Assembly (NCBI RefSeq): GCF_900104525.1
Contig: NZ_LT629711.1
Span: 2,418,001-2,482,000, forward strand
Direction of reading: 5' to 3'
DNA length: 64,000 nt
DNA from: Pedococcus dokdonensis
Lineage (GTDB): Bacteria > Actinomycetota > Actinomycetes > Actinomycetales > Dermatophilaceae
Below the pieces are notes generated by a model. That model was not told where the DNA came from, made no database searches, and saw only the letters and a list, made by a program, of their open reading frames with translations. This document shows positions 1-64,000 of this stretch, in pieces. Numbering within the stretch: the stretch's first letter is position 1; each line of letters begins with the position of its first letter. A program made the position numbers and the translations under genes.

Positions 1-773
1 CGTTCGGTGGTGCGGCGGTTGAGCTCCTTGCCGAGCCGGGCGAGCTGCACACGGTCGTTGACCCCCTCGGTCTGCCACAGGTCGTCGATCAGGTGGGCGC
101 TGACCCGGCCACCGGCCCTGCGGGCGATGGCGAGGACGTCCGTGAGGTACTTCTCCCCCTGGGCGTTGTCGGTGCCGACCTGGCCGAGCGCGTCGACGAG
201 CACAGCGGCGTCGAAGGCGTAGATGCCCGAGTTGATCTCGGTGATGGCGCGCTGCTCGTCGGTCGCGTCCTTCTGCTCGACGATCCCCTCGACGCCGTCG
301 TCGGCGCCACGCAGGATCCGGCCGTAGCCGGTCGGGTCGTCGAGGTGAGCCGTGATCACGGTGACCGCGCTCTGGGTGGCGACGTGCTCCTCGACCAGGG
401 ACTGCAGCGTCTCACCGGACAGCAGCGGGACGTCGCCGTAGGTCACCAGCACGGTGCCGGTGAGGTCGCCCGGTAGCGCGTCGAGGGCGCACTCGGTGGC
501 CCGGCCGGTGCCCTTGACCTCGTCCTGGTCGGCGATCACGGCCTCGGGGTCGACCTCGGCGACGTGCGCCGCGACCAGGTCGCGCTCGTGCCGCACGACC
601 ACGGCGAGGTGCTCGGGACCGACCGCGCGGGCGGCGGCGATCGCGTGGCCGACGAGGGTGCGGCCCCCGATCCGGTGCAGCACCTTGGGGGTCGAGGACT
701 TCATCCGGGTGCCCTCACCTGCGGCGAGGACGATGACAGCGGCAAGGCGGTGCGAGCCGGTGGGGGTGTTCAC
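1..773 (-). CDS. glmU: GlmU, UTP/GlcNAc-1-P uridylyltransferase and acetyltransferase (5' part)
   Basis: GlmU makes UDP-GlcNAc for peptidoglycan in the cytosol: acetylation of GlcN-1-P (C-terminal domain), then uridylyl transfer (N-terminal domain). Reading leftward, about 257 codons are present, beginning MNTPTGSHRLAAVIVLAAGE. The nucleotide-binding loop LAAGEGTRMKS and following PKVLHRIGG are classic for the pyrophosphorylase domain. The window ends near NDRVQLARLGKELNRR, just as the left-handed beta-helix acetyltransferase should begin, so that domain lies outside. The GTG start at 773 has a GGAG about 9 nt upstream. Glm genes beside tRNA-Gln, a TetR gene and the ispE block are usual in Actinobacteria. 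Confidence 0.93.
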   Translation of the reverse strand, partial: MNTPTGSHRLAAVIVLAAGEGTRMKSSTPKVLHRIGGRTLVGHAIAAARAVGPEHLAVVVRHERDLVAAHVAEVDPEAVIADQDEVKGTGRATECALDALPGDLTGTVLVTYGDVPLLSGETLQSLVEEHVATQSAVTVITAHLDDPTGYGRILRGADDGVEGIVEQKDATDEQRAITEINSGIYAFDAAVLVDALGQVGTDNAQGEKYLTDVLAIARRAGGRVSAHLIDDLWQTEGVNDRVQLARLGKELNRRTTE

Positions 774-1005
774 GCGCGAGGCTCCAGCGATCTGGTCGGG
801 TGCGACGGGACGGGCGTCATGCTACCCGCCGGTCGCCCGCCGTTCGTCCGGCGGTCATCCGGCTCAATTCGGACATTTCGGCACGACCTGCGCCGTCTCT
901 CATACCAACGATGGAGGCACTGATCGAACATCGACGCGATTCGATGTCGGGCCTGCGTGGCGAGACTGGAGGCTCCATGCAGGGGGACGACGGAAAGGTC
1001 AGTCA
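774..1005. other. Divergent intergenic region, glmU / secreted protein
   Basis: This 232-nt gap separates divergent starts and must hold promoters for both genes. A ribosome binding site (GGAAAGG) precedes the 1006 start. I see no convincing hairpin, riboswitch or small gene here. Confidence 0.5.
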
Positions 1006-1473
1006 ATGAAGACACTCACGATCAGCCGGTGGACGCTGCCGGCAGCCGGAGTCGCCCTGGTCGCATCTGCAGCGATCGCCATCAGCATGGGGCCGGCGCA
1101 AGCCGCCGACACCATGACGGTCCACGTCAAGCAGGCCAGCGTCGCCGACCACGCCGGCGACTGCCCCGATGGCGTGACCGGCGCGCACTTCGTGATCAAC
1201 CAGATCGCCTCCGGCCCGGCCTCCATCGACGTCGAGCTCGCCGACGGCAGCTCGCAGACGGTGCCGAAGTCGAAGCAGAGCGGCCCCGTCGCCCACTACG
1301 ACGTGTGGTTCACCGGCACCCTCGTGAAGGACGCGACCGCGGTCGTCCCGAACACCTGGCGCGGCCAGTTCGTGCTGTCCAACTACTACTGCGGGCCCAG
1401 CACGTCGACGACGTCCAGCTCCAGCTCGTCCAGCTCTTCCAGCTCCAGCTCGTCGACACAGCCGACCAGCTGA
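1006..1473 (+). CDS. Small secreted protein with poly-Ser tail
   Basis: I do not recognise this 155-residue protein. A Sec signal peptide is clear: basic start MKTLTISR, a hydrophobic stretch at about 11-30, and AQA-A cleavage near residue 35. The mature domain is short, with two Cys (CPDG and YYCG) that could form a disulfide. The last 25 or so residues are almost all Ser/Thr, a likely extended or glycosylated tail. There is no LPXTG-like signal or lipobox, so it is probably released. The ATG at 1006 was chosen over the longer upstream frame because it has a ribosome binding site and opens the signal peptide. It stands alone and ends at a strong hairpin. Confidence 0.75.
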   Translation: MKTLTISRWTLPAAGVALVASAAIAISMGPAQAADTMTVHVKQASVADHAGDCPDGVTGAHFVINQIASGPASIDVELADGSSQTVPKSKQSGPVAHYDVWFTGTLVKDATAVVPNTWRGQFVLSNYYCGPSTSTTSSSSSSSSSSSSSSTQPTS

Positions 1474-1517
1474 CCGGCTGACGCCGCGGCCCTGCCCCCT
1501 GCTGGCCGCACCCCCAG

Positions 1518-1565
1518 CGAAGGGCTCGACCCCGCACCCGTCCCGGGTGCCGGTCGGGCCCTTCG
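1518..1565 (+). terminator. Intrinsic terminator-like hairpin
   Basis: Arms of about 21 nt (CGAAGGGCTCGACC... and ...GGTCGGGCCCTTCG) surround a 5-nt loop, 45 nt after the secreted protein stop. There are few mismatches and a weak U-tract, as usual in high-GC genomes. Confidence 0.7.
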
Positions 1566-1602
1566 TGCATCCCCGGACCGGCCCTTCACCAGCGTGCGGT
1601 GA

Positions 1603-1666
1603 TCTGCACAGAACCTCCACAGTTCCTCCCCCCGTCCCGACCACGGGTCGCCCTAGCGTCCGGGTC
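1603..1666 (+). promoter_or_regulatory. Direct-repeat box and leaderless promoter of the ABC exporter
   Basis: TGCACA-GAACC-TCCACA (from 1605) is a direct repeat with 11-bp period, the spacing used by OmpR/PhoB-family regulators. Nearly the same box lies at 11831 before the response regulator gene. A TAGCGT -10 element (1654-1659) sits 7 nt before the ATG and no Shine-Dalgarno is present, so the mRNA is probably leaderless. Confidence 0.6.
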
Positions 1667-2635
1667 ATGATCAGCGTGGCAGGACTCACCAAGCGGTACG
1701 GCCCGGTGACCGCCGTGGACGACCTCACCTTCGAGGTCGCCGCGGGCAAGGTCACCGGCTTCCTCGGGCCCAACGGGGCGGGCAAGTCGACGACGATGCG
1801 GATGGTGCTCGGCCTCGACCGGCCCACCGCCGGCACCGCGACCGTCAACGGCAAGCGGTATGCCGGCCTGTCCGCTCCGTTGCGCGAGGTCGGGGCGTTG
1901 CTCGACGCGGGTGCCATGCACCCGGGGCGCACCGGGCGGGCGCACCTTCGGATCGGGGCCCGCAGCAACGGCATACCCCTCTCGCGGGTGGACGCCGTCA
2001 TCGAGCAAGCCGGCCTCGGGTCAGCGGCCCGGCGCCGGGTCAAGGGCTACTCGCTCGGGATGCGGCAACGGCTGGGCATCGCAACCGCACTGCTCGGCGA
2101 CCCCGAGGTGCTGCTGTTCGACGAACCGGTGAACGGGCTCGACCTGGACGGCGTGCGCTGGATCCGCGCCCTGCTACGCGGGTTCGCCGACGAGGGACGG
2201 ACCGTGCTGGTGTCGAGCCACCTGATGAGCGAGATGCAGCTGATCGCCGACCGGGTCGTCATCATCGGCGGCGGACGGCTCATCGCCGACTCCGACATCG
2301 GTGCCGTCCTGCACGGGCTCGGCGGGCAGCGCGTCCTGGTGCGCACCCCTGCGGCGGACGAACTCCACCGGGCGCTCGCCGAGCGAGCGTCCGTGTCGCG
2401 CACCGCCCAGGACGAGCTGGAGGTCACCGGCCTGGAGGCTGCCGAGGTGGGCGACCTCGCGCACGCCGCCGGCGTGCGGCTGCACCACCTCGCGGAGGTC
2501 GAGGAGTCGCTCGAGCAGGCCTACCTCTCCCTCACCGAGGACAGCGTGGACTACCACGGCGCAGTCCCTGGGCAGGTCCGGGAGCAAGTCACGGAGCCGG
2601 TCACGGAGCGGCTGGCGGACGGGCCGGTCCGATGA
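1667..2635 (+). CDS. ABC transporter ATP-binding protein
   Basis: Cytoplasmic ATPase (322 residues) of an ABC-2 type exporter of the DrrA/CcmA class. Visible motifs are Walker A GPNGAGKS (about residue 38), signature SLGMRQR, Walker B LLFDEPVNGLD and the switch His in SSHLMSEM. The C-terminal ~90 residues form the regulatory tail common in this class. The start at 1667 opens with MISVAGLTKRYGPV, where the fold begins. The next gene overlaps by 4 nt (ATGA), so the two are translationally coupled. The substrate is unknown; the upstream box suggests control by the two-component system at 11.9 kb. Confidence 0.9.
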   Translation: MISVAGLTKRYGPVTAVDDLTFEVAAGKVTGFLGPNGAGKSTTMRMVLGLDRPTAGTATVNGKRYAGLSAPLREVGALLDAGAMHPGRTGRAHLRIGARSNGIPLSRVDAVIEQAGLGSAARRRVKGYSLGMRQRLGIATALLGDPEVLLFDEPVNGLDLDGVRWIRALLRGFADEGRTVLVSSHLMSEMQLIADRVVIIGGGRLIADSDIGAVLHGLGGQRVLVRTPAADELHRALAERASVSRTAQDELEVTGLEAAEVGDLAHAAGVRLHHLAEVEESLEQAYLSLTEDSVDYHGAVPGQVREQVTEPVTERLADGPVR

Positions 2636-3767: not shown

Positions 3768-3982
3768 GGGTGACGCACGTCCTTTGGTAGGTGTCAGGGG
3801 CTTTCCCTGACACCTCAAGAGTGCGGGTATGCCGCCCTGCCGCCCATCGGGTGCGCCCCTGACCCGACCCCGATCGTGCCCGACCCGGCTCAGGGTCGGG
3901 CCCCGCTGATCCAGCAGGCACTTTGTCAGGACTTTGAGGGATCCGGCGGGTCCTGGTCCGTCGGATCGCTCAAACTCTCCGG

Positions 3983-4061: not shown

Positions 4062-4186
4062 ACGGCCCCGACGCCGCACGGCGAGGGGACGCGCCAAGGG
4101 TAGCCAAGCACGCGGCATACCCCGGCATCCGTGGGCCGCCCCGACCGGGGAACCCGACCGCATGCGGCGCCGTTGCTCCCCATGAC

Positions 4187-5243: not shown

Positions 5244-6038
5244 TCAGGGCGCCGTCGCGAGCAGCCGCCGGAACGCGACGACCTCTGGCTGCTGCCAGTC
5301 GACGTGGTCGTTGCGCCATCCTTCGAGATCGCGAAATGCCTTGCTGTCATTGGCCATCGCATGGCCGATGACCGCTTGGTCGGGGATGTCGAAGCGGCGT
5401 TGTAGGTGCTCCACCAGCGATGCACCGGCCAGCGCCTGGGCGCGCCGGGCCAGCACCTGCTGGGCGGCCCACCGGGGGTCGTGGCCGTGCGACGCCTGCA
5501 CGAACTCGATCCCGATCGCGACGTGGTTGAGTCCCACGGTGTGCCGGCACCGCAGCGTCGGCGGCACCAGCTCGTGGATCGTGCCGTCCTGGTCGACGAC
5601 GTAGTGCGCGCAGGTGCCAGGCGCCTCACCGCGGTTGGGCAGGTCGGCGGCGAACAGCGACCGCACCGAGGCGTACGTGTCGCTCTCGGTGTAGTGCAGG
5701 ACGATCATCGAGGGCTGCAACCGCGCCGTGCGGACACCGTAGTGACGCAAGGAGTACGCCGCCGTCTCGGCCTTCCGCGCAGCCTCGAACGCCAGGTGGT
5801 CGCTGACGATGCGCGGCGCAGCGGGGACATCGAGAGGAGCCGAGGGCGGGGTGCTCGGGGTCGCGGCGCTCGTCACCGACGGGGGAGGCTTCGGCGGGGA
5901 CTCCGCGCGCCCCACGAGCCCTCCACCCAGCGCGACGCCGACCCCGGCCAGGGTCAGCACGACGGCAGCCGCACCGACCAACCGCCGCGCGCCACCGGCA
6001 TACCCGCCCTCTCCCCTCACGACCACCACGCTACGCAC
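5244..6038 (-). CDS. N-acetylmuramoyl-L-alanine amidase (amidase_2 / PGRP fold), secreted
   Basis: Predicted zinc amidase that splits the MurNAc-L-Ala bond of peptidoglycan outside the membrane. Residues ~17-47 form a signal or anchor segment, followed by a Pro/Ser-rich linker. The catalytic domain begins near 105: MIVLHYTES (first zinc His), GTCAHYVVDQDGTIHELV, RCRHTVGLNHVAIGIEFV and VIGHAMAND. The GTG start at 6038 gives 264 residues but its upstream spacing is tight: the divergent TetR gene starts only 5 nt away. A start a few codons later is possible. Substrate details are unknown. Confidence 0.8.
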   Translation of the reverse strand: MRSVVVVRGEGGYAGGARRLVGAAAVVLTLAGVGVALGGGLVGRAESPPKPPPSVTSAATPSTPPSAPLDVPAAPRIVSDHLAFEAARKAETAAYSLRHYGVRTARLQPSMIVLHYTESDTYASVRSLFAADLPNRGEAPGTCAHYVVDQDGTIHELVPPTLRCRHTVGLNHVAIGIEFVQASHGHDPRWAAQQVLARRAQALAGASLVEHLQRRFDIPDQAVIGHAMANDSKAFRDLEGWRNDHVDWQQPEVVAFRRLLATAP

Positions 6039-7450: not shown

Positions 7451-8259
7451 GACGCAGCATCCGTGCGGTGGGCGACGAGGAAGATGCGACGGAACGGGAA
7501 GATGACGCCGATCGGCGTCCTCGGGTATGCCGCGCGGAGCCTTGCGTCGTAGTCCGCCAGGAAGGCGCCGCGCTGTGACTCGTCGGTGAGGGTCTCGAGC
7601 ACCGGTCGCAGGCCGGTGCCGCGCACCCACTCGAGGACCGGGTTCGCCTGTCGCGCTTCGGGATCGAGGACGTGCTGGTAGGTCGTCTCCCACCCGTCGA
7701 CGTCGAGTCCGGCACCGCCGAGCAGCTCGACGTAGGCCGACGGCCGGTCGACCGCGAGCCGGTCGAGAGCGGGCCGGAGGCGTTCGGACTCGGGATGACC
7801 CGCGGCCACCTCGCGCATGAGGGCATGGGAGGGCGCGTCGAGGTTGCCCGGCACCTGCATCGCGAGCCACCCACCGGGCGCGAGGGCGGCCGCCCACGCT
7901 GTCAGCAGGTCGCGGTGTCCCGGCACCCACTGCAAGGTCGCATTCGTGACGATGACGTCGGGAGCCTCGCCCAGGGATGCCGGATCCCATTGCGCCACAT
8001 CGGACTCCACCCACTCGACCCGACCCGCCGCATCGAGCGACCTGGCCGAGTCGAGCATCTGCGGGCTGTGGTCGACACCCACGATGCGCGCGTCCGGCCA
8101 GCGCTCGGCCAGCGACAGGGTGAGCGGGCCGTTGCCGCAGCCGAGGTCGACGACGATGCTCGGGGCAACCGCCCCGACCCTGGCCAGGAGGTCGCCGAAG
8201 GGTCGCGACCGGTGGTCGGAGAACTTCGCGTACTGCTGCGGGTCCCACGTGGTGCTCAT
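7447..8259 (-). CDS. tam: Trans-aconitate 2-methyltransferase
   Basis: SAM-dependent methyltransferase (270 residues) that methyl-esterifies trans-aconitate, a toxic isomer that inhibits aconitase. Opening MSTTWDPQQYAKFSDHRSRPF and motif I VVDLGCGNGPLT match Tam, as do VGVDHSPQMLDSA, NATLQWVPGHRDLL and LAMQVPGNLDAPSH. Length is normal. It is divergent from the MarR gene at 8341 across a perfect palindrome, the arrangement known for tam/tamR in Streptomyces. It is followed by a coupled VOC gene. Confidence 0.9.
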   Translation of the reverse strand: MSTTWDPQQYAKFSDHRSRPFGDLLARVGAVAPSIVVDLGCGNGPLTLSLAERWPDARIVGVDHSPQMLDSARSLDAAGRVEWVESDVAQWDPASLGEAPDVIVTNATLQWVPGHRDLLTAWAAALAPGGWLAMQVPGNLDAPSHALMREVAAGHPESERLRPALDRLAVDRPSAYVELLGGAGLDVDGWETTYQHVLDPEARQANPVLEWVRGTGLRPVLETLTDESQRGAFLADYDARLRAAYPRTPIGVIFPFRRIFLVAHRTDAAS

Positions 8260-8968: not shown

Positions 8969-10804
8969 TCAGCCGACGATCTCGGCGGCCTCCAGCCACT
9001 CCAGCTCCAGGCCCTCGCGCTCGTCGACGATCTCGCGCAGCTGGCCGTTGAGGGTCAGCACCTTCGCGTGGTCGGTGGCCGACGCGGCCATCTCGGCGTG
9101 GATCCGCTCCTCACGCTGGGCCAGTCGGGCCAGCTGCTTCTCGACCCGCGCCATGTCCTTGCGCGCCTCGCGCAGCTCCGCCGGTGTGCGGAGCGGCGCA
9201 CCCGCGGCCCCGTCGGTGCCAGCTGCGGCGACTGCAGGTTTCGCTCCGAATGGGTGGGAGACCTGCGGCCGGGCGGCGGGCTGGGCGTGCCGCAGCTCGA
9301 GGTACTGCTCCACGCCGCCGGGGAGCTCGCGGACCTTGCCGTCACCCATCAGCGCGACCTGCTTGTCGCAGGCCCGCTCGAGCAGGTAGCGGTCGTGCGA
9401 CACCACGAGCAGCGTGCCGGCCCAGCCGTCGAGCACGTCCTCGAGCGAGGTCAGCGTCTCGATGTCGAGGTCGTTGGTGGGTTCGTCGAGGAGCAGCACG
9501 TTGGGCTCGTCCATCAGCAGCCGGGTCAGCTGCAGCCGCCGCCGCTCGCCACCGGACAGGTCGGACACCCGCGTCTGCTGGCGACCACCCGTGAAGCCGA
9601 GCCGTTGCGCGAGCTGCGAGGCACTGATCTCCTTCTTGCCCAGGCGGATGTACTTGCGCACGTCCTCGATCGCCTCGATGACCCGCCAGTCGGCGTAGCG
9701 CTCCAGCTCGCGCACCTCCTGCGTGAGGTAGGCGAGCCGCACCGTCACCCCCTGCTTGCGCTTGCCCGAGGACAGGGCGATCGTCCCCGCGATGGCGCGC
9801 AGCAGGGTCGACTTGCCGGCGCCGTTGACGCCGACGATGCCGACCCGCTCGCCGGGAGCGAGGTGCCAGGTGATCCGGTCGAGCAGGACGCGGTCTCCGA
9901 GCGTCACCGAGGCATCCAGCAGGTCGACCACGTCCTTGCCCAGCCGGGTCGTGGCGAAGCGCATCAGCTCGACGTCGTCGCGCGGGGGCGGCTCGTCGGC
10001 GATGAGGGTGTTGGCCGCGTCGATGCGGAACTTCGGCTTGGAGGTGCGCGCCGGCGGGCCGCGGCGCAGCCAGGCCAGCTCCTTGCGGAGCAGGTTGTCA
10101 CGGCGTTCGGCGGTGACCGCCGCCATCCGCTCACGCTCGGCCTTCGCGAGCACGTATGCCGCGTAGCCTCCCTCGAACGCGTTGACCGAGCCGTCGACGA
10201 CCTCCCACGTGGCGGTCGCGATGGCGTCGAGGAACCAGCGGTCGTGGGTGATCGCGACGACGGCGTTGTCGGGGCGGGCGCGGTGCCGCACGAGGTGCTC
10301 GGCCAGCCAGGCCACCCCCTCGACGTCGAGGTGGTTGGTCGGCTCGTCGAGGAACAGCACCGTCGGGTCCTGCACCAGCAGCCTGGCCAGAGCGAGGCGC
10401 CGTCGCTCGCCACCGGACAACGGACCGACGAGCGCGTCGAACCCACCCACGGCCTCGGCCCCGATCCCGCCGAGCAGCCCGGTCAGGACGTCGCGGATGC
10501 GCGGGTCGCCGGCCCAGACGTGTTCGGGGAGGTCGCCGAGCACCTCCTCGCGGACCGTGTGGGCGGGGTCGAGGACGTCTTCCTGGGCGAGCACACCCAC
10601 GCTGGAGACGCCCGCGCGGGTGACCCGGCCGCTGTCGACGGACCGCTGCCCGGCGAGCACCCGGAGCAAGGTGGTCTTGCCGCCACCATTGCGGCCGACC
10701 ACCCCGATCCGGTCGCCGCCGAGCACGCCGAGCGAGACCTCGTCGAGCACCTGAGCGGTGCCGAGGGCCAGCGAGGCGCGCTCGACACTGATGAGGTTGG
10801 CCAT
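8969..10804 (-). CDS. ABC-F family ATP-binding cassette protein
   Basis: Soluble twin-ATPase (611 residues) acting on ribosomes (translation factor or antibiotic protection type), without membrane segments. First cassette: Walker A VGRNGGGKTTLL, signature LSGGERRRL, Walker B LFLDEPTNHLD. Second: VGVNGAGKSTLL, LSGGERRRLQLTR, LLLDEPTNDLD. The linker lies between, and a C-terminal charged coiled-coil (ARKDMARVEKQLARLAQREERI) ends the protein. It starts by ATGA overlap with ispE, a conserved actinobacterial pairing (Uup-like). A housekeeping role is likelier than resistance. Confidence 0.92.
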   Translation of the reverse strand: MANLISVERASLALGTAQVLDEVSLGVLGGDRIGVVGRNGGGKTTLLRVLAGQRSVDSGRVTRAGVSSVGVLAQEDVLDPAHTVREEVLGDLPEHVWAGDPRIRDVLTGLLGGIGAEAVGGFDALVGPLSGGERRRLALARLLVQDPTVLFLDEPTNHLDVEGVAWLAEHLVRHRARPDNAVVAITHDRWFLDAIATATWEVVDGSVNAFEGGYAAYVLAKAERERMAAVTAERRDNLLRKELAWLRRGPPARTSKPKFRIDAANTLIADEPPPRDDVELMRFATTRLGKDVVDLLDASVTLGDRVLLDRITWHLAPGERVGIVGVNGAGKSTLLRAIAGTIALSSGKRKQGVTVRLAYLTQEVRELERYADWRVIEAIEDVRKYIRLGKKEISASQLAQRLGFTGGRQQTRVSDLSGGERRRLQLTRLLMDEPNVLLLDEPTNDLDIETLTSLEDVLDGWAGTLLVVSHDRYLLERACDKQVALMGDGKVRELPGGVEQYLELRHAQPAARPQVSHPFGAKPAVAAAGTDGAAGAPLRTPAELREARKDMARVEKQLARLAQREERIHAEMAASATDHAKVLTLNGQLREIVDEREGLELEWLEAAEIVG

Positions 10805-11739
10805 CAGCCCGGCCGTGGGGAGCTGATGACGTGGGCACCGTGCGCGGGCCCGGTGGCCCGGCGCACGTCCTGCACGGCACCCGATGCCGTCAGCGACACG
10901 GCGAGGTCGAGGGCCGCCTCGTTGGACTCCGCGACGAACGCCACGGTGGGGCCTGATCCCGACACGACTCCACCGAGGGCACCGAACTCGAGCCCGGCGT
11001 CCAGCACGTCGCCCAGGGCCGGCATCAGCGAGATGGCCGCGGCCTGGAGATCGTTCGACAGGGCGGCCCCGAGGGCCCGCGCGTCGCCGGACCGCAGCGC
11101 AGTCATCATCTCCGGGCTCGGCGACGGCTCGGGGACGGGACGGTCGCCCCGCAGCCGGTCGCACTCGGCATACACGGCGGGGGTGGACAGCCCGCCCTCG
11201 CTGAGGGCGAACACCCAGTGGTAGCTGCCGCGCGCGAGCACCGGCGCCAGCACCTCGCCGCGCCCCGAGCCCATCGCGGTCCCGCCACCGAGGAGAAAGG
11301 GGACGTCGCTGCCGAGGCCCGCGGCGAGCTCCTCGAGCTCCGAGCGGCTGAGTCCGGTGCCCCAGAGGTGGTCGCACGCGACGAGGGTGGCAGCCGCGTC
11401 GGCCGAGCCCCCGGCCATACCACCGGCGACGGGGATGTCCTTGCGGATCGTGATGTGCACCGGCTCGTCGACCCCACCGACCTCGGCGAGCCGCTGGGCC
11501 GCCCGCGCCGCGAGGTTCGTGCCGTCCACCGGCACCCCCAGCGCCTGCGGGCCCGACACGGCGATCCCCCACTCGGGCGCAGTCGTGACGGTGACCTCGT
11601 CGAAGAGGTTGACGGCGTGGAAGACCGTGGCGAGCGGGTGGTAGCCGTCGGGCCGCGGTGCACCGACGAGCAGCTCGAGGTTGACCTTCGCCGGGACGCG
11701 CACCGTCACCGACGACGGCGGCAGGGCTGCGGAGGTCAT
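10804..11739 (-). CDS. ispE: 4-diphosphocytidyl-2-C-methyl-D-erythritol kinase
   Basis: GHMP kinase of the MEP isoprenoid pathway that phosphorylates CDP-ME at the 2-hydroxyl with ATP. 311 residues. VPAKVNLELLVG is motif 1, IPVAGGMAGGSADAAATL the ATP-binding motif 2 and GGVVSGSGPTVAFVA motif 3. The ATG at 11739 follows TAGGGT by 7 nt, so translation is probably leaderless. The stop overlaps the ABC-F start. rsmA normally sits just upstream in this block; here a two-component system and a membrane domain have been placed between them. Confidence 0.93.
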   Translation of the reverse strand: MTSAALPPSSVTVRVPAKVNLELLVGAPRPDGYHPLATVFHAVNLFDEVTVTTAPEWGIAVSGPQALGVPVDGTNLAARAAQRLAEVGGVDEPVHITIRKDIPVAGGMAGGSADAAATLVACDHLWGTGLSRSELEELAAGLGSDVPFLLGGGTAMGSGRGEVLAPVLARGSYHWVFALSEGGLSTPAVYAECDRLRGDRPVPEPSPSPEMMTALRSGDARALGAALSNDLQAAAISLMPALGDVLDAGLEFGALGGVVSGSGPTVAFVAESNEAALDLAVSLTASGAVQDVRRATGPAHGAHVISSPRPG

Positions 11740-44013: not shown

Positions 44014-44583
44014 ACCAAGGCCGTGGTGCGGCAGCGGCTGCGCGGCCTGCGGCGCGAGCGCGTGCCGGGCCGGGACCGCGCGCGAGATGCCACCGAGCTG
44101 GAGCTCGCCGCCCTCGAGGTCGGGTATGCCGCCGGGCTGGGTCCGGGCGACTGGGTCGCCGCCTACGAGTCCACCTCGTCGGAGCCACCCACGGAGGCGC
44201 TGGTCGCCGCGTTGGTGGCGCGCGGCATACGGGTCATGGTGCCGGTGACGCTCGAGGACTGGGATCTGGACTGGCACGAGGTCTCGCCCGATCGCTCATC
44301 GGCCGACGCCGCCGCCGACGACTCCGGCATGGAGCTGTTGGGGCCGGAGGCGATCGGGCGTGCGGCGGTGGTCTTCGTCCCGGCGCACGGCGTGGACCGG
44401 TCCGGGACGCGGATCGGCCAGGGCAGGGGGTGCTACGACCGGGCGCTCCCCCTCACCGCGGCTCGGGTCGTCGCGGTCGTGCACCCGTGGGAGGTGCTCG
44501 ACGAGCGGCTGCCGAGCGAGCCGCACGACCGCCGCGTCGACGCCGTGATCGCGGCCGGTCTCGGCGTCATCGACCTGACGTAG
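43966..44583 (+). CDS. 5-formyltetrahydrofolate cyclo-ligase
   Basis: 205-residue ATP-dependent enzyme returning 5-formyl-THF to methenyl-THF. Conserved KAVVRQRLRGLRRER and the phosphate/ATP loop GQGRGCYDRALPL near residue ~148, followed by VVAVVHPWEVLDERLPSEPHDRRVDAVI. The N-terminus is unusual: four 12-bp repeats give (VPPS)x4 and four in-frame GTG codons (43966, 43978, 43990, 44002). The true start could be any of them. Divergent from UGP across 29 nt. Confidence 0.9.
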   Translation: MPPSVPPSVPPSVPPSTKAVVRQRLRGLRRERVPGRDRARDATELELAALEVGYAAGLGPGDWVAAYESTSSEPPTEALVAALVARGIRVMVPVTLEDWDLDWHEVSPDRSSADAAADDSGMELLGPEAIGRAAVVFVPAHGVDRSGTRIGQGRGCYDRALPLTAARVVAVVHPWEVLDERLPSEPHDRRVDAVIAAGLGVIDLT

Positions 44584-49530: not shown

Positions 49531-49659
49531 GCGCAGGCCGCGAGCCCGCGGCATACGGCATCCGCCCGCCCTGTCCACAGGGCGGGCGTCGTCGTCCGCC
49601 CGCCCACAGGACCCGCTCGCGGGAGGTGCGCGGCCCGGGCGGCTGCGTAGGCTGGCGGC

Positions 49660-51838: not shown

Positions 51839-54800
51839 TCAGTCGGAGCCCCAGTGCGGCGGGCGCTGCTCGCGCAGCCAGCGGTCGTGGGCCGAGTCGT
51901 CCGCGCCCTCGCCCCAGCCGGCGTCGGTGTCGTCCTTGGTCTGCTGTGCCGGGAGGTCGAACAACGCCGAGTCGTCCGCATCGCCGGTCCCGGGCGCGAT
52001 CACCCGCTTGCCCTTGCGCCCCCGGACGCGGCGCTGGCGGGCACCCTCGTCGGTGGTGGGCACGAAGTCGTCGGATCCGGCCGGAGCCGATCCGCCCTCG
52101 ATCGGCAGCCGGTCCTCGCCGCCAGACTCAGCCCCGGGCTCGGGGGTGGTCGGCTCGGGGGTGGCGGACTCGGCGGCGGGGTCCGGCTCGGGGGTGGTGG
52201 AGTCGGGGGTGGAGGACTCGGCGGCGGGGTCCGGCTCGGGGGTGGTGGAGTCGGGGGTGGTGGAGTCGGGGGTGGTGGACTCGGCGGCGGGGTCCGGCTC
52301 GGGGGTGGTGGGCTCCGGGCCGGTCGGCTCGACCGCGACCGGGAGGGCTGCGGCACGGGCAGCGGCGGCCTGTTGCACGGCTGCGTGCACCCGGGCGACG
52401 TCGCGGGCGGGGTCGCGGAACAGGTCGGTCGACCACACCCGCACGTGCATCCAGCCGAGTCGGCCGAGCTGCTCGCCGCGCAGCCGGTCACGGTCGCGGC
52501 TGGACCGCATGGCGGCGTAGGACGGGCCGTCCGTCTCGACCGCGACCAGCACGTGTCCGCGGTGGTCGGGGTCCTCCACGGCGAGGTCGATCGGGTGCGC
52601 CGCAGACCCGTATCCCTCGTGCACGACCAAGCCGGTGTCCCGCAGCCGCCGGGCGAACTCGGCCCGCAGCGGGTCGGCCGGTGGGTCCGTCGCGGCGACC
52701 GGCACCGGTGCGTCGAGAGGGTGGGAAACCGTCCCCACCGCGGCGGGTGAGGTCGATCCGCCACCCTGTCGGGACGGCTCGGGCTGTCGTGACGCCTCGG
52801 GGTCGGTGGACGCGGCAGGGAGGGTGCCGTCCGCGGCATACGCGAGGAAGTCACGCAGCATCACCGCTCCCCGGGCCCTGAGGCGCGCCGGGTCGAGGTC
52901 GCTCGCGACCAGGGACGAGACCACGGTCATCCGGCGACGGGCACGGGTGATGGCGACGTTGAGGCGGCGTTCGCCACCTTCGAGGTTGAGCGGCCCGAAC
53001 CGGTGCAGCACCCGGCCGTGCGGCGTCTTGCCGTAGCCGACCGACAGGATGATCGCGTCGCGCTCGTCGCCCTGGACGCGCTCGAGGTTCTTGACGAAGA
53101 ACCGCTCGGGCCGGTCCTCGTCGAAGAAGTCGCCGACCCCGGCTGCGGCGTCGGTCGCGAGCGCGCGACGCAGGGCGTCGTCGAGCCGGGTCGCGTGCTT
53201 GATGCCGAGCGCGATGACCCCGAGCGACTCGTGCGGGCGGGTGCGGGCGTGCTCGAGCACGAGGTCGACGACCCGGGACACCTCGGCCTCGGTCGACTCG
53301 ATCGCCTCGTCGCCGGGGGTGACGACGCCGGAGCCCTCGACCGTCTCCAGGCGCACGACCGGGTCGGTGCCGGTGCCGGGGAAGGTGACGAGCGAGCCGT
53401 CGTACATCTCGCGGTTCGCGAAGGCGACCAACCGCTCGTCGAGCGACCGGTAGTGCCACGACAGGCGCCGGGTCGGCAGTGCGGCGGTGAGCACGTCGAG
53501 CACCGACTCGAATCCTTCGGTCAGGGCATCGGACTCCGGGGCGGAGTCCTCGTCAACCGCGGCCGTGAAGAAGCTGGTCGGCGGCAGCTGACGCTCGTCG
53601 CCGGCCACGACGACCTGGTGGGCGCGCGAGATGGCGGACACCGCCTGGGCCGGCGGGATCTGCGAGGCCTCGTCGAAGATCACGACGTCGAACCAGCGGC
53701 CCGGCGGCAGCACCGACGCGACCACCAGCGGCGACATCGCCCAGGCCGGCTTGGCGGCGGTGAGGGTCTCGGCCGCCCGTGGGAGCAGGTCGCGCAGGGC
53801 ACGGTGCCGGCGGGCCTTGCCGGCCTCGGCGCGCACCAGCGCCTCCTGGTCGGGGTGGTCGGCGAGCACCTCGCGCAGCCGGCGTGCGGCCCCTGCGCGC
53901 ACCCGGTCAGCGCTGGCGCGCAGGTGGGCGTGGTCGGCGGCGACGTACTCCCGGGCGACGCGCTGGAGCTGCGCTCCGTCGTGCGCGCCGTAGCGCGGGT
54001 CGCGGACGGTGAGGTCCTCGGACAGCGAGGTCCACCAGACGAAGTCGAGCTCGGCGGCCACGTCGTCGGGTTCCACACCACGTCGGGCGAGGTCGTCCAG
54101 GAGGGCGCCCATGCCCGACTCGCGCAGGGCGTCCAGCGCCCCGAGCACCCGGGGCACGACGGTGAGCCGGTCGGGGCGGCTGTCGAGCTCGGCCATCCGC
54201 TCGCGCAGCTGGGCGAGGGTGGCGCCGAAGAGGTCGCCACCGCCGTGGGTGGCCGCGAGCCGGTCACCCAGCCAGGCCAGGTCGGCGGCGAGGGCGGTGT
54301 ATGCCGTGCGCGCCCGGTCCAGGTCGACCGGGATCTCGGGACGGCCACCTGCGCCGGCCATCTGCTGCCAGGCGGTGCGTTGGGTCTGGGCGTCCAGCAG
54401 CGCGAGGTGCAGGTCGGCCGGCGGCGGCCCGGGACGCAGCAGCGACCGGGCCTGGCGGCGCAACCGCCAGCGCGCCAACCAGCCGAGGGCCACACCGTCG
54501 GCCTCGCGCTGGGCCTTGCTGCCCGTCGCCGCCACGAGGTCACCCAGCGGGATGTCGAAGATCTCCGGCCGGAACACCTCGAGGGTGTCGCGGACCCGCC
54601 CGACCGAGTCGAGCACGGCCCCCCAGTCGCCCACGCGGTCGGCCCGCGGCAGGCTGACGTCGGCGAAGACCTCCTGCATGGTCTGCTCCACGTCCTGGAG
54701 CCCGCCCTGGCTGAGTCGGCTGGTGATGTCGCGGGCGCGGACGGCCTCCTCGGAGGTGACGATGCGGGCGCCGAACCACGGGTCGGACCCCTCCTCGGTG

Positions 54801-56275: not shown

Positions 56276-57634
56276 CTAACCAACCTGGTCGCCGTCCCGG
56301 TCGGGCAACACGGCCTCGGACAGCACGGTGTCGGGAGTCACCGACGGGCGGGGTGCAGCGGTGTCGTCCGGAGCGGGCGGCTCGACCCGGATGAGCAGCG
56401 AGGCCAGGGCGACGATCGCGGCGAGGACCGCCGAGCAGGCCCCGAGCACGGAGTAGCCGAGCTGACCGACCACGACCCCGGCCAGCGCGCCGCCACCTCC
56501 GGCAGCCAGTCCCATGACGAGGTCGGAGGCGCCCTGGGCGCCGGCCCGCTCGCCGAGCGGTACCGACTTCACCACCAGGGTCGAACCGCTGACCAGGGTG
56601 AACGACCAGCCGAGACCGAGCAGGAACAGCCCGATGGCGAGCCCGGCCGACCAGCCGATCGGCGCCTGGGCGGCCAGCACCCCGGCGACGACGAGGATGA
56701 CGGCGCCCGCGAGTCCACACGTGCGCCCGCCCCACCGGTCGACGGCCAAGCCGGTCAACGGCGAGAACGCGAACATGCCGAGCACGTGGAGGCTGATCAC
56801 CACCCCGATCACCCGCAGGCTCGCGCCCCCGTGGTGCATGTGCAGGGGGGTCATCACCATGACGCTGACCATGACGGTGTGGCCCAGCGCCATCGTCACC
56901 AGACCCAGCAGCGCGCCCGGGTGGGCGAGGAGGGTGCGCCAGCCCCGCACGATCGACCCGTGCTGCACCTCCATCGGCCCGACCGCGCTCGCGGCTGCCC
57001 GCTCGCGAGCCAGCAGGAGCGGGTCGGGTCGCAGCCGGGTGAAGAGCAGCACGGCACCCAGGACGAGCCCGAGCAGGGAGAAGACGTAGGGACCGGTGAG
57101 CGCGGGGATGCCCAGCCAGTCGGCCACCGGCTCCCCCGGTCCGGCCAGGTTGGGTCCGAACACGGCGCCGATCGTGGTCGCCCACACCACCGTCGAGAGG
57201 TCGCGCCCGCGGTGTGCGTCGTCGGCGAGGTCGGCCGCGGCATACCGGGCCTGGCTGTTGGCGGCGTTGGAGCCGCCGAAGAGCGCGGCACCCACCAGGA
57301 GCAGGGGGAAGCTGCGCACCGCGCCGGCGGTGATCATGAGCACGGCGCCGACGATGCCGACGACATAGCCGACGAGCAGGCCCCAGCGCCGACCACGTGC
57401 GGCCATGACGTGCGCCATCGGGATCGCGATCAGTGCTCCGCCCAGCACCTGGAAGGTGCCGCCCAGCCCAGCGAGGTCGGCCGACCCGCTGACGTCCTCG
57501 GCGAGCAACGCACCCACGCCGGCGCCCGCGGAGACCCCGACGCCGACGAGCACCTGGGTGCCGATCAGGGTGGTGATGGTGCGGCGCTGCACATGCCGGT
57601 CCGCGTGCGGTGAGGGGGCGGGGTGGACGGGCAC
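56276..57634 (-). CDS. MFS transporter
   Basis: 452 residues, twelve hydrophobic segments. The MFS loop motif appears as MAHVMAARGRRWGLLVG (after TM2) and LAVDRWGGRTCGLAG (after TM8). The extended N-terminus (MPVHPAPSPHADRHVQRR) is basic. Start GTG 57634 was chosen over an upstream in-frame Met; CATACT lies 6 nt before it. Substrate unknown. Its gene lies 9 nt from the helicase start, suggesting cotranscription with it. Confidence 0.87.
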   Translation of the reverse strand: MPVHPAPSPHADRHVQRRTITTLIGTQVLVGVGVSAGAGVGALLAEDVSGSADLAGLGGTFQVLGGALIAIPMAHVMAARGRRWGLLVGYVVGIVGAVLMITAGAVRSFPLLLVGAALFGGSNAANSQARYAAADLADDAHRGRDLSTVVWATTIGAVFGPNLAGPGEPVADWLGIPALTGPYVFSLLGLVLGAVLLFTRLRPDPLLLARERAAASAVGPMEVQHGSIVRGWRTLLAHPGALLGLVTMALGHTVMVSVMVMTPLHMHHGGASLRVIGVVISLHVLGMFAFSPLTGLAVDRWGGRTCGLAGAVILVVAGVLAAQAPIGWSAGLAIGLFLLGLGWSFTLVSGSTLVVKSVPLGERAGAQGASDLVMGLAAGGGGALAGVVVGQLGYSVLGACSAVLAAIVALASLLIRVEPPAPDDTAAPRPSVTPDTVLSEAVLPDRDGDQVG

Positions 57635-57668
57635 CGCGCCAGTATGCCGCCCGGCGCGGACACCCGAA

Positions 57669-57742: not shown

Positions 57743-58849
57743 CTACCGGGCGCCTGTCACCGTGAGGGTCGAGAGGCCCGGGGCGGTCACGGCGATCGAG
57801 ATCGTCGCGCCGTTGCCGATCTGCACCGAGAAGCCGGGAGCCGCGCTGGCACTCGAGCCTGCGGGGATCACCACGGTCCCGTTGGCGCCGGTGCTCGGGT
57901 CGGCCGTCACGGTCAGCGCCGTCGGGGTGGTTGCGACGTTGCCCCACGTGTCGACGAGCTGCGGGATCGCGGTCCAGGCGTGGTTGCCGTTCTGTCCGGG
58001 GTTGCTCGCGGAGCAGCTGCGGGCCGTGCTCGGGTCGCTGAGTGCGGCGCAGGTGAGCGTGACCGCCGCCCCCTTGCTGCGGGCGTCGAGGAGCATGAAG
58101 TTCCTGGCCGCGGCGGCTTGGACCGTGATCGGCGCGGAGCTGCCGGTGATCCCCTGGTAGCTCGCCGTGATCGCAGTGGTCTCGGCGGCGTAGAGGCGGA
58201 CCGTCGTGGTCGCCTGGCCGGCCCAGAAGAGCACCGTCGAGGTGTAGGTCCAGGCCTTGCCGGAGGGGCTGGCGCTCGGGCCGGTCAGCGTCACCGTGCC
58301 CCAGCTGTAGAAGCTGGTGTCGGTGCTGCCGTCGCAGTTCCTGCGGGTCAGGTCCACGTCGAAGGAGGTGCCCGCGGTGACCGTGGCGGGTGCGCTGACG
58401 GCCAAGGAGTCGGCCGAGCTGCACAGCGTGCTGCCGGTGGTCGCGGCCGATGCGGCGGTCCAGGCGCCGAGGGTGGCGACGACGGTGTAGGAGTAGGTCT
58501 GCCCGCCGGTGAGGCCGGTGTCGGTGCAGCTGTAGGCGCCCGAGCTCGGCAGCGAGCAACCGAGGGTGGTCGAGCCGCGCTTGACCGTGTATGCCGTGCC
58601 GGTCACCTGGGCGGCGGCGGCCGGGAGGGTGCCGCTCACCACGAGCGAGGTCTGGGTCGCGGTGCCGACGGCGGGCGCGGCCGGGGTCGCCAACGTGCGG
58701 GCGGTGGCACCGGCGGTCGCCGTGCCGGAGGTGGACCAGAAGGCCAGCGCGGGGGTGGCACCGAGCGCAGCGACCAGGCCGAGGGCACCGACGGTCAGGG
58801 CGACCCGACGCAGCCCGCGGGCTCCGAGGCGCGCGGTCGGGCGGCTCAT
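57743..58849 (-). CDS. SipW-type signal peptide secreted protein (operon gene 4)
   Basis: 368 residues. Long N-terminal signal with the SipW/TasA hallmark ALAFWSTSGTATAGATA just after the hydrophobic core. The rest is beta-rich with Ig/fibronectin-like segments (ATVTAGTSFDVDLTRRNCDGSTDTSF; PTALTVTADPSTGANGTVVIPAGS) and six or so Cys. It is the largest of four linked proteins and starts by ATGA overlap with the previous gene. TasA-like fibres or pilus-like structures are plausible; no direct homologue recognised. Confidence 0.8.
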   Translation of the reverse strand: MSRPTARLGARGLRRVALTVGALGLVAALGATPALAFWSTSGTATAGATARTLATPAAPAVGTATQTSLVVSGTLPAAAAQVTGTAYTVKRGSTTLGCSLPSSGAYSCTDTGLTGGQTYSYTVVATLGAWTAASAATTGSTLCSSADSLAVSAPATVTAGTSFDVDLTRRNCDGSTDTSFYSWGTVTLTGPSASPSGKAWTYTSTVLFWAGQATTTVRLYAAETTAITASYQGITGSSAPITVQAAAARNFMLLDARSKGAAVTLTCAALSDPSTARSCSASNPGQNGNHAWTAIPQLVDTWGNVATTPTALTVTADPSTGANGTVVIPAGSSASAAPGFSVQIGNGATISIAVTAPGLSTLTVTGAR

Positions 58850-59310
58850 GCCGTCTTCCCCTTGGCGCTCACCGGGATGGTGAAGGTGGCGCCCTGGCAG
58901 TCGGAGGACGACGAAGCGGTCATCGCGATCGCGTCGGTGAAGCTGACCGGGGCGCTGCCCCCGGCTGGGACGGTCACGGAGACCGAGGCCGGCAGGGTCA
59001 CGGTGACACCGGGCGTGGTGCAGCCGGCGCTCGCGGCGACCGAGCCGGCGAGGTCGATCGAGGTGACCGTGACCGGGCGCTGGTTGGGGTTGCTCACGGT
59101 GACGGTGAGGGTGGCGGAGCCACCCGGGTAGAGCGTGTCGCTGACGGCGGCGACGGCCGACAGGGGCGCCGTGGTGCCGGCCGCGGCGGTGCCGGTGCCC
59201 GCGCCGGTCTGGGACCACACGGCATACGCGAGGCCGGCGGCCATGACGATCGCGGCGGTGCCGGTGCCTGCGGCGGCGAGGCGGCGCGTCCAGCGCTGAC
59301 GGGCGGTCAC
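58846..59310 (-). CDS. SipW-type signal peptide secreted protein (operon gene 3)
   Basis: 154 residues. Signal segment AAAGTGTAAIVMAAGLAYAVWSQTGAGTG has the AVWSxTG type hallmark. The mature part is one beta-rich domain with DTLYPGGSATLTVTVSNPNQRPVTVTSIDL, a motif shared with the other operon members (YPGxxxxLxVTVTNPN). Two Cys (AGC, SDCQG). Start GTG 59310 overlaps the preceding stop (GTGA), and its stop overlaps the next start. Confidence 0.82.
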   Translation of the reverse strand: MTARQRWTRRLAAAGTGTAAIVMAAGLAYAVWSQTGAGTGTAAAGTTAPLSAVAAVSDTLYPGGSATLTVTVSNPNQRPVTVTSIDLAGSVAASAGCTTPGVTVTLPASVSVTVPAGGSAPVSFTDAIAMTASSSSDCQGATFTIPVSAKGKTA

Positions 59311-61658: not shown

Positions 61659-61887
61659 TCGAGTTCCTCTGGCTGGGTGGGCCGGATGCGAATCTGGAGG
61701 GTATGCCGGTCCGCGTCACCTTCGTGACCCGATTGCGGCCCGACTCGTCCCTTCGGGGGATGTCCCGTCGACCTGGTGGGCCGATGGCCATTTGCCTGCG
61801 CTGGGTGCTCGTTGCTCCGTGGTGGGGAGACGGACCCGGGCAGCGAGTCGTGACGTCGCGAACCGCAGGTCGCCGGCACCCGCGAGG

Positions 61888-62166
61888 ACCGGCGCTGAAG
61901 TCGGCGGCATACCGCTCCAGGTAGTTGACGAACTGGGAGGCGCTCATGAAGCCGTCGGCGTCGGGGCCGGTGTGTCGCCACTCGGGCAGGCGAGCCATCC
62001 AGTTGGGGGTGAGCAGGTGCAGGCTGTCCCAGCGCGCGGAGCGCCAGCTCTCGGCGACGCGACCGCGGTCGAGGACCACGTGGTCGCGCCCTTCCTTGGT
62101 CAGCAGACGGCTGACGGCGAGGCCTGCGTGGCCGGCACCGATGACGACGGTGTCGATGGCGGGCAT
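61888..62166 (-). pseudogene. Truncated FAD/NAD(P)-dependent monooxygenase
   Basis: The first ~93 residues are a clear FAD-binding start (MPAIDTVVIGAGHAGLAVSRLL ... ESWRSARWDSLHLLTPNWMARLPEW... SQFVNYLERYAADF). After that the reading frame loses all family resemblance (Arg/Pro-rich shadow sequence) and runs into the protease gene in another frame. The NADP domain and catalytic half are missing, so it is a remnant left by deletion. It lies 76 nt downstream of OsmC, a pairing usual for the intact gene. Confidence 0.85.
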
Positions 62167-62241: not shown

Positions 62242-62820
62242 TCAGCCGGTCACGACGGAGACGGAGACGGGTGTGGGGTTGGTCAGCGCGTCGTAGACGG
62301 CCGACCGGCGGCGGGACTGCTCGACGATGCCGCGGAGGGTCTCGTCGTCGGCGTCACCTTCGATGTGGAAGGTGACGCGCAGCTCCTGGTAGCCGTTGCG
62401 GACCGAGCCGTCGGAGAGCCCGAGGATGCCGAGCAGGTCGATGTCACCCTCCACGGTCGAGGAGACCTTGGTGAGCTCGACTCCCCTGGCGGAGGCGATG
62501 TTCGCGATGCCGGCGGTGAGGCAGGACGCGATGGCGTGGAGGAGGAACTCGACGGGCGTCGGGGCCTTGTCGGCGCCGGTGAGGACGACCGGGTGGTCGG
62601 CGTCGAGCACCGTCTCGTGGGTGTGCGTCAGCTCCTGGCCGGCTCCGTAGAAGCCGTGGATGCGCGACTGGCTGTGGGTGCCGGTCTGCCAGGTGTTGGT
62701 GGCGCGGAACTGGAACTTGGCGATCTCGTTCTGTCCCTTGACGGCGTCGAGGGTGGCGAAGAGGGTCGCGACGTCCACACCGTTCAGCGGGGTGCGGGTG
62801 GCGTATGCCGTGTTGCTCAT
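62242..62820 (-). CDS. OsmC family protein
   Basis: 192 residues. Characteristic TPVEFLLHAIASCLTAGIANIASARGV with the reactive Cys (SCLT), FYGAGQELTHTHETVLDADHP and ELTKVSSTVEGDIDLLGI. OsmC-type proteins reduce organic hydroperoxides with two Cys; only the first is clear here, so peroxidase activity is uncertain. It is a longer version typical of OsmC/YhfA proteins. The monooxygenase remnant is downstream. Confidence 0.85.
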   Translation of the reverse strand: MSNTAYATRTPLNGVDVATLFATLDAVKGQNEIAKFQFRATNTWQTGTHSQSRIHGFYGAGQELTHTHETVLDADHPVVLTGADKAPTPVEFLLHAIASCLTAGIANIASARGVELTKVSSTVEGDIDLLGILGLSDGSVRNGYQELRVTFHIEGDADDETLRGIVEQSRRRSAVYDALTNPTPVSVSVVTG

Positions 62821-62967: not shown

Positions 62968-63032
62968 CGCCGGGCGAACCTCTGTGGCACCGGGGAGAAC
63001 GGCTCCCCGGAACCCACGAGGAGAAACCTGAA

Positions 63033-63230
63033 ATGACTGAGATGACCATGTCGGTCCTGGCCGTGCACCGAGCGGTGGCGGCCGAGGCGCAGCACACGTC
63101 CCACGTGATGGCGTACGACCACGCACTCGCCAAGCGACTCGCCCGTCGGGCTCGCGCGGCTCGCTGGCGGCGCACGACCACGGGACAGGCGGCCGCGCGG
63201 CCTTCAGCCGCCATCAGCGCTGAGTGCTGA
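63033..63230 (+). CDS. Small basic protein of unknown function
   Basis: 65 residues, MTEMTMSVLAVHRAVAAEAQHTSHVMAYDHALAKRLARRARAARWRR..., no recognised domain. The middle is predicted helical and rich in Arg/Ala. GAGGAG lies 9 nt before the ATG and a terminator follows, so it looks expressed. Divergent from OsmC, with a shared regulatory region; a role in the same stress response is only positional. Confidence 0.6.
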   Translation: MTEMTMSVLAVHRAVAAEAQHTSHVMAYDHALAKRLARRARAARWRRTTTGQAAARPSAAISAEC

Positions 63231-63245
63231 GCAATGCCGCTCCAG

Positions 63246-63285
63246 AGGCGGGCGCGTCGGAGAGATCCGGACGCGCCCGCCTTTC
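63246..63285 (+). terminator. Terminator after small gene
   Basis: AGGCGGGCGCGTC / GACGCGCCCGCCT, 13-bp stem with an 11-nt loop and TTCT tail. Confidence 0.85.
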
Positions 63286-63490
63286 TCACGTCTCCGGCTC
63301 CGGGGGGCCCGCGCGTCCCTGCGAGCTGAACGCCCGGTATCGGGTTCCAGGTCGCGGTGTCGCCCCAGTCCCCTGGTGCCGTGCGAAGCGAGTGCCGAGC
63401 CACCGGCCGCGGTCGGATACCCTGCCTGACGCAGGATCGGACCCCATCCCGGACGCCACTAGGTGCCGTGGAAACGGTCCGTCAGCCCCC

Positions 63491-63566
63491 GCCCTCGTAG
63501 CTCAGGGGATAGAGCACCGCTCTCCTAAAGCGGGTGTCGGCAGTTCGAATCTGCCCGAGGGCACCA
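63491..63566 (+). tRNA. tRNA-Arg (anticodon CCT)
   Basis: Acceptor GCCCTCG / CGAGGGC, anticodon loop CTCCTAA (anticodon CCT, reads AGG), T-arm GGCAGTTCGAATCTGCC and an encoded CCA (63564-63566). Confidence 0.94.
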
Positions 63567-64000
63567 CCACAAAATCGCAGGTCAGAGCGTCACAGAGTCC
63601 GCATCGGCTCGGCTCCCTTTCACGAACCCCCGGCTGGGCCCCCGTGAGGCCAAGGCGCCGACGGCGTACGCGACGTACCTCGCCCGGAATGCCCAACGTC
63701 TTGTTCGGCGGACCCAGCCAGACTGCATTGACGTCGTAGATCTCGTCATCGACGGCAAGGCGCATCGGCTCAGCCCGTGACGAGGCCAGCCATCCGGGCC
63801 CCCAGGTTGTCGGCCTGCCCTGAGCTAGCCAGACCAAGCACCGCGAGTGCCACGATGACGCCCGAAACGACCTTCATTGACTTCGCGGTCGCCCCTCTGG
63901 GCGCGCACGAAGAGCTGCCTGCGCCCTAGATCTGACTGCTGATGACCAGCCAAACATTGGCCGCCCAGGCGATCAAGGCAGCGGGGATCCACTCCCTCTC
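63567..64000. other. Unassigned right end with small minus-strand ORFs
   Basis: No gene is certain. On the minus strand: a partial frame from the window edge to a stop at 63924 ending IPAALIAWAANVWLVISSQI (one membrane helix); a 35-codon frame 63877-63770 starting MKVVSGVIVALAVLGLASSGQA (signal-like); and a frame from 63765 opening MRLAVDDEIYDVNAVWLG that runs into the tRNA antisense. These could be small exported or membrane peptides, or eroded remnants next to a tRNA. Confidence 0.35.

Follow-up and report, generated by a model that had tools for sequence, protein, structure and literature searches.

The 64,000-nucleotide stretch analysed here (the window), positions 2,418,001 to 2,482,000 of contig NZ_LT629711.1 of Pedococcus dokdonensis, carries 40 copies of the octamer GTATGCCG, found on both strands. 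An earlier note on this DNA had counted by eye about 42 copies of the 7-bp core GTATGCC or GGCATAC, nearly all extended to the octamer; the core was indeed present exactly 42 times, and 40 of these copies corresponded to GTATGCCG. The note's expectation of about six copies agrees with base composition alone, which gives 5.9 for the 7-mer, and in dinucleotide shuffles of the window 2.29 copies of the 7-mer and 0.81 of the octamer (largest value 4) were expected, compared to the 40 octamers observed. Three of the 13 coordinates quoted were off by two to three bases (39759 for 39762, 58589 for 58587 and 3827 for 3825), and 1970 and 44224 were correct as positions of the 7-mer. The use of the rare Ile codon ATA (read GGC ATA C) at 1969, 27437 and 44223 was confirmed, in stop-to-stop frames of 435, 286 and 210 codons, respectively. 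With a crude open-reading-frame filter, which makes the genic or intergenic status of these few sites tentative, one of the three sites described as intergenic (3827) was in no passing frame, the two others could lie in frames of 206 (4113) and 164 codons (34212), and the site at 39759, described as genic, was in no passing frame.

The 3.94-Mb chromosome contained 1,927 copies of GTATGCCG (973 forward and 954 reverse), approximately one per 2 kb, compared to 57 copies (28 and 29) of the reversed word. A 444-kb sample of the genome, consisting of the window and 19 stretches round the chromosome, contained 233 copies (121 plus, 112 minus). Markov models of order 1, 2 and 3 predicted 5.9, 5.7 and 11.3 copies, and GTATGCCG was the top-ranked octamer under all three orders; the count against a Markov model that the earlier note had proposed thus gave 233 versus 5.7 at order 2. 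The strand skew that it had also suggested looking for was absent from the chromosome, and in the sample plus and minus copies were near-equal in either half of the contig (the position of the origin was not located). The flanks showed a weak preference for C or T at +8, G at +9 and G or C at +12 (GTATGCCGYGnnS). A longer repeat around the word was rejected, as past +12 the divergence of all flank columns was 0.16 or less, with codon periodicity accounting for much of it. Of the one-mismatch neighbours, GTATGGCG (19 copies versus 5.3 expected) and GGATGCCG (78 versus 42.3) were the most clearly raised in the sample, and GTATGTCG reached nine copies versus 3.2. The reversed control word GCCGTATG was itself raised in G005, G006, G039, G041, G094 and G102 (439 to 578 copies), perhaps because GCC often precedes the word (GCCGTATGCCG) or because of tandem copies, such as those at G005:C1:15914 and 15921.

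The maintenance of GTATGCCG at the DNA level, independently of codon use, is strongly supported. Using a crude gene caller of high-GC type, whose 78% of sample called coding is probably an underestimate, 162 of the 233 copies were located inside called genes (0.47 per kilobase) and 71 outside them (0.72 per kilobase). Shuffling synonymous codons among all called genes gave 8.5 ± 2.7 coding copies instead of 162. TAT encoded tyrosine in 83 of 95 G_GCCG contexts, compared to 78 of the 1,823 cases of the general class; it was used in 5 of 45 cases before GCCG without the leading G, and in 2 of 16 G_GCC contexts without the following G. Alanine before TAC was encoded by GCA in 47 of the 84 cases preceded by CG and in 2 of the remaining 171. 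The Ile codon ATA occurred in 12 of 55 motif contexts against 12 of 3,724 in general, and 12 of the 24 ATA codons of called genes were within the word. GTACGCCG, the form favoured by codon usage, was depleted in coding sequence (18 copies versus 53.4 expected), as if it had been converted to GTATGCCG. The earlier note had argued for selection on the DNA word itself, naming beforehand a codon-aware expectation and enrichment in relatives as the tests. Both the shuffles and the relatives (see below) bear out the maintenance; "selection" may be too strong a term, as biased uptake (molecular drive) predicts the same pattern.

The region at approximately 36–56 kb in the window was aligned to stretches of ten congeners (Table 1). 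In 69 of the 96 aligned site-genome cells the octamer was retained exactly, the highest retention among the 688 words with enough data (the runner-up overlaps GTATGCCG, and the median was 23%); pooled words with TAT or ATA, overlaps of GTATGCCG included, were kept in 41%. Relative to G141, 10 of 10 sites were kept where 22% of all aligned octamers were identical. The spacing of the word in the P. dokdonensis genome was even: gaps of more than 80 bases had a coefficient of variation of 0.71, compared to 0.92 (standard deviation 0.057) in simulations, none of 1,000 being as low. Inverted pairs of the form GTATGCCG-N4-30-CGGCATAC numbered 48 in this genome, 108 in G141 and 207 in G049, when approximately 6, 25 and 18, respectively, were expected from copy numbers. 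Of 19 word-bearing genomes, 17 had more than 1.5 times as many such pairs as chance would give, and the three GTATGCCG-poor genomes searched had none, as expected. In the 444-kb sample, nine pairs faced inward and two outward; several pairs were near-perfect hairpins, and both arms were outside called genes in six of the nine.

Mobile DNA was poor in the word. Thirty transposase (rve) loci returned from word-bearing genomes contained 16 copies of GTATGCCG versus 62.5 expected from genome density, and one copy, versus 21.8, was in the 1.1 kb where the match is usually located. Controls were not similarly depleted at these loci (one-mismatch neighbours, 0.71 per kilobase versus 0.78 in host stretches; anagrams, 74 versus 69). 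Prophages were too few for such a test, with a portal match in 1 of 40 genomes. The record of phage TJE1 contained two copies of the word and two of the reversed word, the word status of its host not being established.

Table 1. Location of the 40 GTATGCCG sites in the window, with coding context and retention in aligned congeners.
Positions	Strand	Coding context	Kept in aligned congeners
1858..1865	+	Tyr TAT-Ala GCC in 435-codon frame	
1969..1976	-	reads GGC ATA C, rare Ile codon; 435-codon frame	
3827..3834	+	no frame passing filter	
4113..4120	-	possible 206-codon frame	
5996..6003	-		
7525..7532	+	GCA TAC, Ala-Tyr on - strand	
10154..10161	+		
11166..11173	-		
13208..13215	+		
14281..14288	-		
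15532..15539	-		
15782..15789	+		
19316..19323	-		
22231..22238	+		
23733..23740	-		
27437..27444	+	GGC ATA C on - strand, rare Ile codon; 286-codon frame	
27888..27895	-		
32800..32807	-		
33031..33038	-		
33414..33421	+		
34212..34219	-	possible 164-codon frame	
36346..36353	-		5/6
38621..38628	+		1/2
39391..39398	-		9/9
39759..39766	+	no frame passing filter	5/10
42377..42384	-		9/10
44124..44131	+		4/7
44223..44230	-	rare Ile ATA, 210-codon frame	2/9
46502..46509	-		8/10
48220..48227	+		9/10
49549..49556	-		4/5
52834..52841	-		9/10
54299..54306	+		4/8
57238..57245	-		
57642..57649	+		
58589..58596	+		
59220..59227	-		
61701..61708	+		
61905..61912	-		
62803..62810	+		

The genome-wide search, which was confined to the order, found at least 300 copies of GTATGCCG in 110 of the 186 genomes of the family and in 31 of its 53 genera, with a maximum of 4,724 copies (G100); G039 had 3,225. 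In the rest of the order, none of 273 genomes reached 300 copies (maximum 177, compared to 135 for the reversed word there). Among 22-kb comEC loci, those of Humibacillus xanthopallidus (13 copies) and Arsenicicoccus bolidensis (6 copies) contained the word, and those of Intrasporangium flavum, an uncultured Phycicoccus and Dermacoccus abyssi were devoid of it. Single members of word-bearing genera, G084, G008 and G114, were poor in the word. A ComEC tree had 59 rows, of which 33 were labelled as poor, 25 as bearing and one was unlabelled; some of the poor rows were later found to carry dialects. On this tree the word label required nine changes, at least seven of them forced by supported branches. 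One old origin followed by many losses or switches would be the simpler reading of this distribution, because the word is identical everywhere.

Sixteen word-poor or intermediate genomes were sampled for dialects (80 kb in 14 of them and 40 kb in two), and a related word stood out in six. GGATGCCG was the top octamer in G158, G178 and G017, GTACGCCG ranked first in G002 and second in G089, and GGTATGCG, with GTATGCGG, was first in G025; GGATGCCG, GTACGCCG and GTATGCGG are one-base variants of GTATGCCG. Coding copies again exceeded synonymous shuffles, for GGATGCCG in G178 (49 versus 9.0), G017 (43 versus 9.6) and G158 (20 versus 5.5), for GTACGCCG in G002 (41 versus 11.9) and G089 (43 versus 9.4), and for GGTATGCG in G025 (21 versus 2.1). 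Genome-wide, GGATGCCG reached 2,099–4,480 copies in seven genomes (among them 3,816 and 3,838 in g9, 3,949 in G178, 4,480 in G034 and 3,619 in G035), the next highest count being 1,336 (G158). Two of the seven carried two words side by side: 2,195 copies of GGATGCCG and 1,217 of GTATGCCG in G036, and 2,099 and 1,189, respectively, in G037. Even spacing of other words was significant in G025 (0 of 500 simulations) and weaker for CGAAGGGG in G093 (38 of 500).

Some cases were less clear: GTACGCCG in G084 (18 versus 9.4) and in G012 (24 versus 3.7 by the Markov model only, the gene caller being unusable there), CGATGCGG in G083 (55 versus 9.8, coding), and CGAAGGGG in G093 (36 versus 7.5, coding) and also in G053. 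In G083 (g32), CGATGCGG was present in 69 copies in 80 kb versus 13.1 and has ATGCGG in common with the GTATGCGG dialect. CGAAGGGG, with 68 copies per 80 kb in G093 (g36) and 40 in G053 (g27), belongs to a clade without GTATGCCG; with its five inward pairs in G093, it is possibly an unrelated uptake-like word. G053 also has a longer interspersed repeat around GCGCAACTGCCCGGGCAAAT, in which AACTGCCC was found 27 times in 80 kb, with 23 of the 27 copies outside called genes, unlike the octamer. No related word stood out in the 80- or 40-kb samples of G019, G021, G022, G038 and G096; in word-poor G021 (g11), CGGTGACG topped the octamers with 64 copies in 80 kb versus 15.6.

The P. dokdonensis genome possesses a comEA gene (SLBB and HHH domains) followed by comEC at approximately 550 kb, and a Tad locus at approximately 3.60 Mb encoding a T2SSE ATPase, T2SSF, a pilin-size DUF4244 protein, a TadE-like protein (Pfam score just under the cut-off) and a Tad/TadG-like protein. 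TadZ and TadC are names given by position only. T2SSE had five matches in this genome. N_methyl type IV pilins had no match in 76 of 78 genomes, P. dokdonensis included, and were matched in two. Among 48 com loci scored, from which G070 was left out as its comEC was not found by tblastn, apparent breaks were seen in 4 of 31 word-poor and in 0 of 17 word-bearing loci (at least 300 copies). The four genomes, all poor in GTATGCCG, were G084 (comEC split between two frames), G022 (the same for comEA), G068 (no comEA match and part of comEC missing) and G114 (comEC diverging near a contig end). These breaks are suggestive only, as sequencing errors could account for the frame changes and the fetched locus ends within many comEA frames. 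G084 is a single-contig assembly and the only word-poor genome of the three in g33; its split comEC is either a real lesion or a sequencing error. In G008, word-poor within a word-bearing genus, the com genes were intact.

We propose that GTATGCCG is probably the DNA-uptake sequence of a Tad-pilus transformation system, independent of the proteobacterial DNA uptake sequence (DUS) and uptake signal sequence (USS). In this model, competent cells of the family would import DNA by way of a pilus of the Tad/Flp type together with ComEA/ComEC, and we infer a surface DNA receptor, linked to the Tad pilus, that would bind GTATGCCG better than other DNA. Fragments carrying the word would enter and recombine more often, so that copies would be created and kept genome-wide at orthologous places, and foreign DNA such as transposons would stay word-poor. 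A one-base shift in the preference of the receptor would lead to the re-tagging of the genome with a new dialect, and the loss of competence to the decay of the words. The general uptake machine exists in genomes with and without the word and therefore does not explain it; a receptor preference would.

Several observations weigh against this proposal. A ComEC match was found in 77 of 78 genomes irrespective of the word; G168, a word-bearing genome in many contigs, was the one without. T2SSE ATPase matches were likewise present in 78 of 78. No tested gene (ComEC, T2SSE ATPases, Tad locus content) follows the word, the gene content of 20 word-poor and 20 word-bearing Tad loci showing no clear pattern by a noisy, low-stringency tblastn. 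No comEC break was seen in several genomes that have neither the word nor a related dialect, for example G053, G093 and G096. Retention was weak relative to G143 (4/11), G146 (4/8) and G138 (5/9), congeners which themselves hold fewer copies. Inverted pairs were not in excess in G094 (12 versus 19, 0.6x) and barely in G136 (8 versus 6, 1.3x); six dialect samples showed no clear excess, with zero to two pairs each, too few to judge. Even spacing was absent in three of five samples of other words (G178, G089 and G083), and the scarcity around transposases equally fits any slow word-making process. The literature searched, which was covered in part, contained no uptake or transformation data for members of the family. 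We know of no sequence-specific receptor for any Tad or Gram-positive system.

The main rival, which we consider unlikely, is a loop of the HIP1 type, in which an orphan methyltransferase would recognise the word and methylation-guided repair would create and maintain it, the dialects reflecting changes of methylase. Such a loop would likewise leave young DNA word-poor, and there is a precedent in cyanobacteria, where the HIP1 octamer and alternate HIPs are found with a matching methylase (PMC4390886, in excerpt). However, HIPs are palindromic and GTATGCCG is not, an excess of pairs in the inward arrangement alone is not predicted, and the sharing of one word by genomes of 31 genera is also a point against it. 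Improbable too is a recombination hot-spot word similar to Chi but recognised by AdnAB or some other helicase-nuclease that is not RecBCD: GTATGCCG is an asymmetric octamer spread over the chromosome, and Chi words are over-represented (same excerpt), but the strand skew was lacking in both the chromosome (973/954) and the sample (121/112). RecC (PF04257) was matched in 13 of the 40 word-bearing genomes, in 19 of the 32 that are GTATGCCG-poor and in three of the six intermediate ones; no match to this family was found in the complete P. dokdonensis genome, and therefore Chi of the RecBCD type does not fit and was rejected. For Chi, moreover, an abundance of 20 to 40 times the Markov expectation is high, and dialects that differ by one base between sister genera are unusual.

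The even spacing, with approximately one copy per 2 kb over the sampled chromosome, would suit a chromosome-organising site, bound by a nucleoid protein or used in segregation. KOPS-type sites are polar, however, and were rejected as GTATGCCG has no strand polarity; a structural site should not vanish from G084, G008 and G114 within word-bearing genera, and we give this explanation very little credit. A by-product of codon-pair or protein composition has next to no chance of being correct: most coding copies do read Tyr-Ala or Ala-Tyr, but 71 of the 233 are outside called genes, rare codons are concentrated in the word, and the synonymous shuffles (8.5 versus 162) refute it. Of the comparisons offered in the earlier note, uptake words give the best fit, HIP1 a poor one, and Chi and KOPS fail.

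It is fairly likely that the tagging of DNA for uptake arose here independently for a third time, and for the first time outside Proteobacteria. Such a system would operate through Tad/Flp pili in one actinobacterial family, with at least four dialects (GTATGCCG, GGATGCCG, GTACGCCG and GTATGCGS), possibly more (CGATGCGG in G083; CGAAGGGG in g27 and g36), and repeatedly lost or switched. A third case, in another phylum and with a different pilus, would indicate that tagged uptake evolves repeatedly, and would open the search for a receptor in the Tad system. The dialect switches between close relatives (g15) and the losses in sister lineages would provide natural experiments on drive versus benefit, and natural transformability would be predicted for many actinobacteria of the family.

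Among known systems, HIP1 resembles GTATGCCG in being a very frequent octamer that is scarce in some genomes or has given way there to another word, and a methylase for the alternate HIP is present in the genomes which have one; HIP1 differs in being palindromic and linked to a methylase (excerpts of PMC4390886), whereas GTATGCCG is not palindromic, flanks included. Chi, whose words are over-represented oligomers (same source), is similarly an asymmetric octamer but works with RecBCD. In the actinobacterium Micrococcus luteus, tad genes are required for transformation, which was abolished by deletion of any tad gene except tadB (PMC4322843), and this species and P. dokdonensis have in common actinobacterial ComEA/ComEC and tad loci; the term "uptake sequence" is absent from that study, and no sequence preference is described in the available portion of it. 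The titles and abstract openings of the literature searched, several listings being seen in part, contained no actinobacterial uptake word, and a 2025 paper, in its available part, gives Neisseriaceae and Pasteurellaceae as the only families known with such uptake (PMC12616744).

The minor type IV pilin ComP reads the DUS of Neisseriaceae, which is, like GTATGCCG, a short non-palindromic word with similar counts and with dialects. Genomes of N. meningitidis and N. gonorrhoeae each contain approximately 1,900 copies of the DUS and that of K. oralis almost 6,000, and its dialects differ in one or a few bases, S. muelleri carrying two (excerpts of PMC3630211), as do G036 and G037 here. DUS are found within transcriptional terminators, according to the title of a cited reference, and GTATGCCG in inverted pairs. 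The present hosts differ from those of DUS by their phylum, their word and the absence of N-methyl type IV pilin matches in 76 of 78 genomes. GTATGCCG and the neisserial DUS ATGCCGTCTGAA (PMC5031613, in part) share ATGCCG. This overlap is probably a coincidence, and kinship seems unlikely on the sequences because the CTG core, essential in DUS, is absent from GTATGCCG. The USS of Pasteurellaceae has a flanking preference, as GTATGCCG has weakly. It is an asymmetric 9-mer, fairly evenly distributed and under-represented in new segments and in coding sequence (excerpts of PMC7811141 and PMC5031613); it differs in word and host, and its predicted receptor is a type IV minor pilin (PMC12616744). 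DUS and USS show much the same syndrome as GTATGCCG, in counts, dialects, the presence of two dialects in a single genome, relatively even spread, scarcity in new DNA and terminators.

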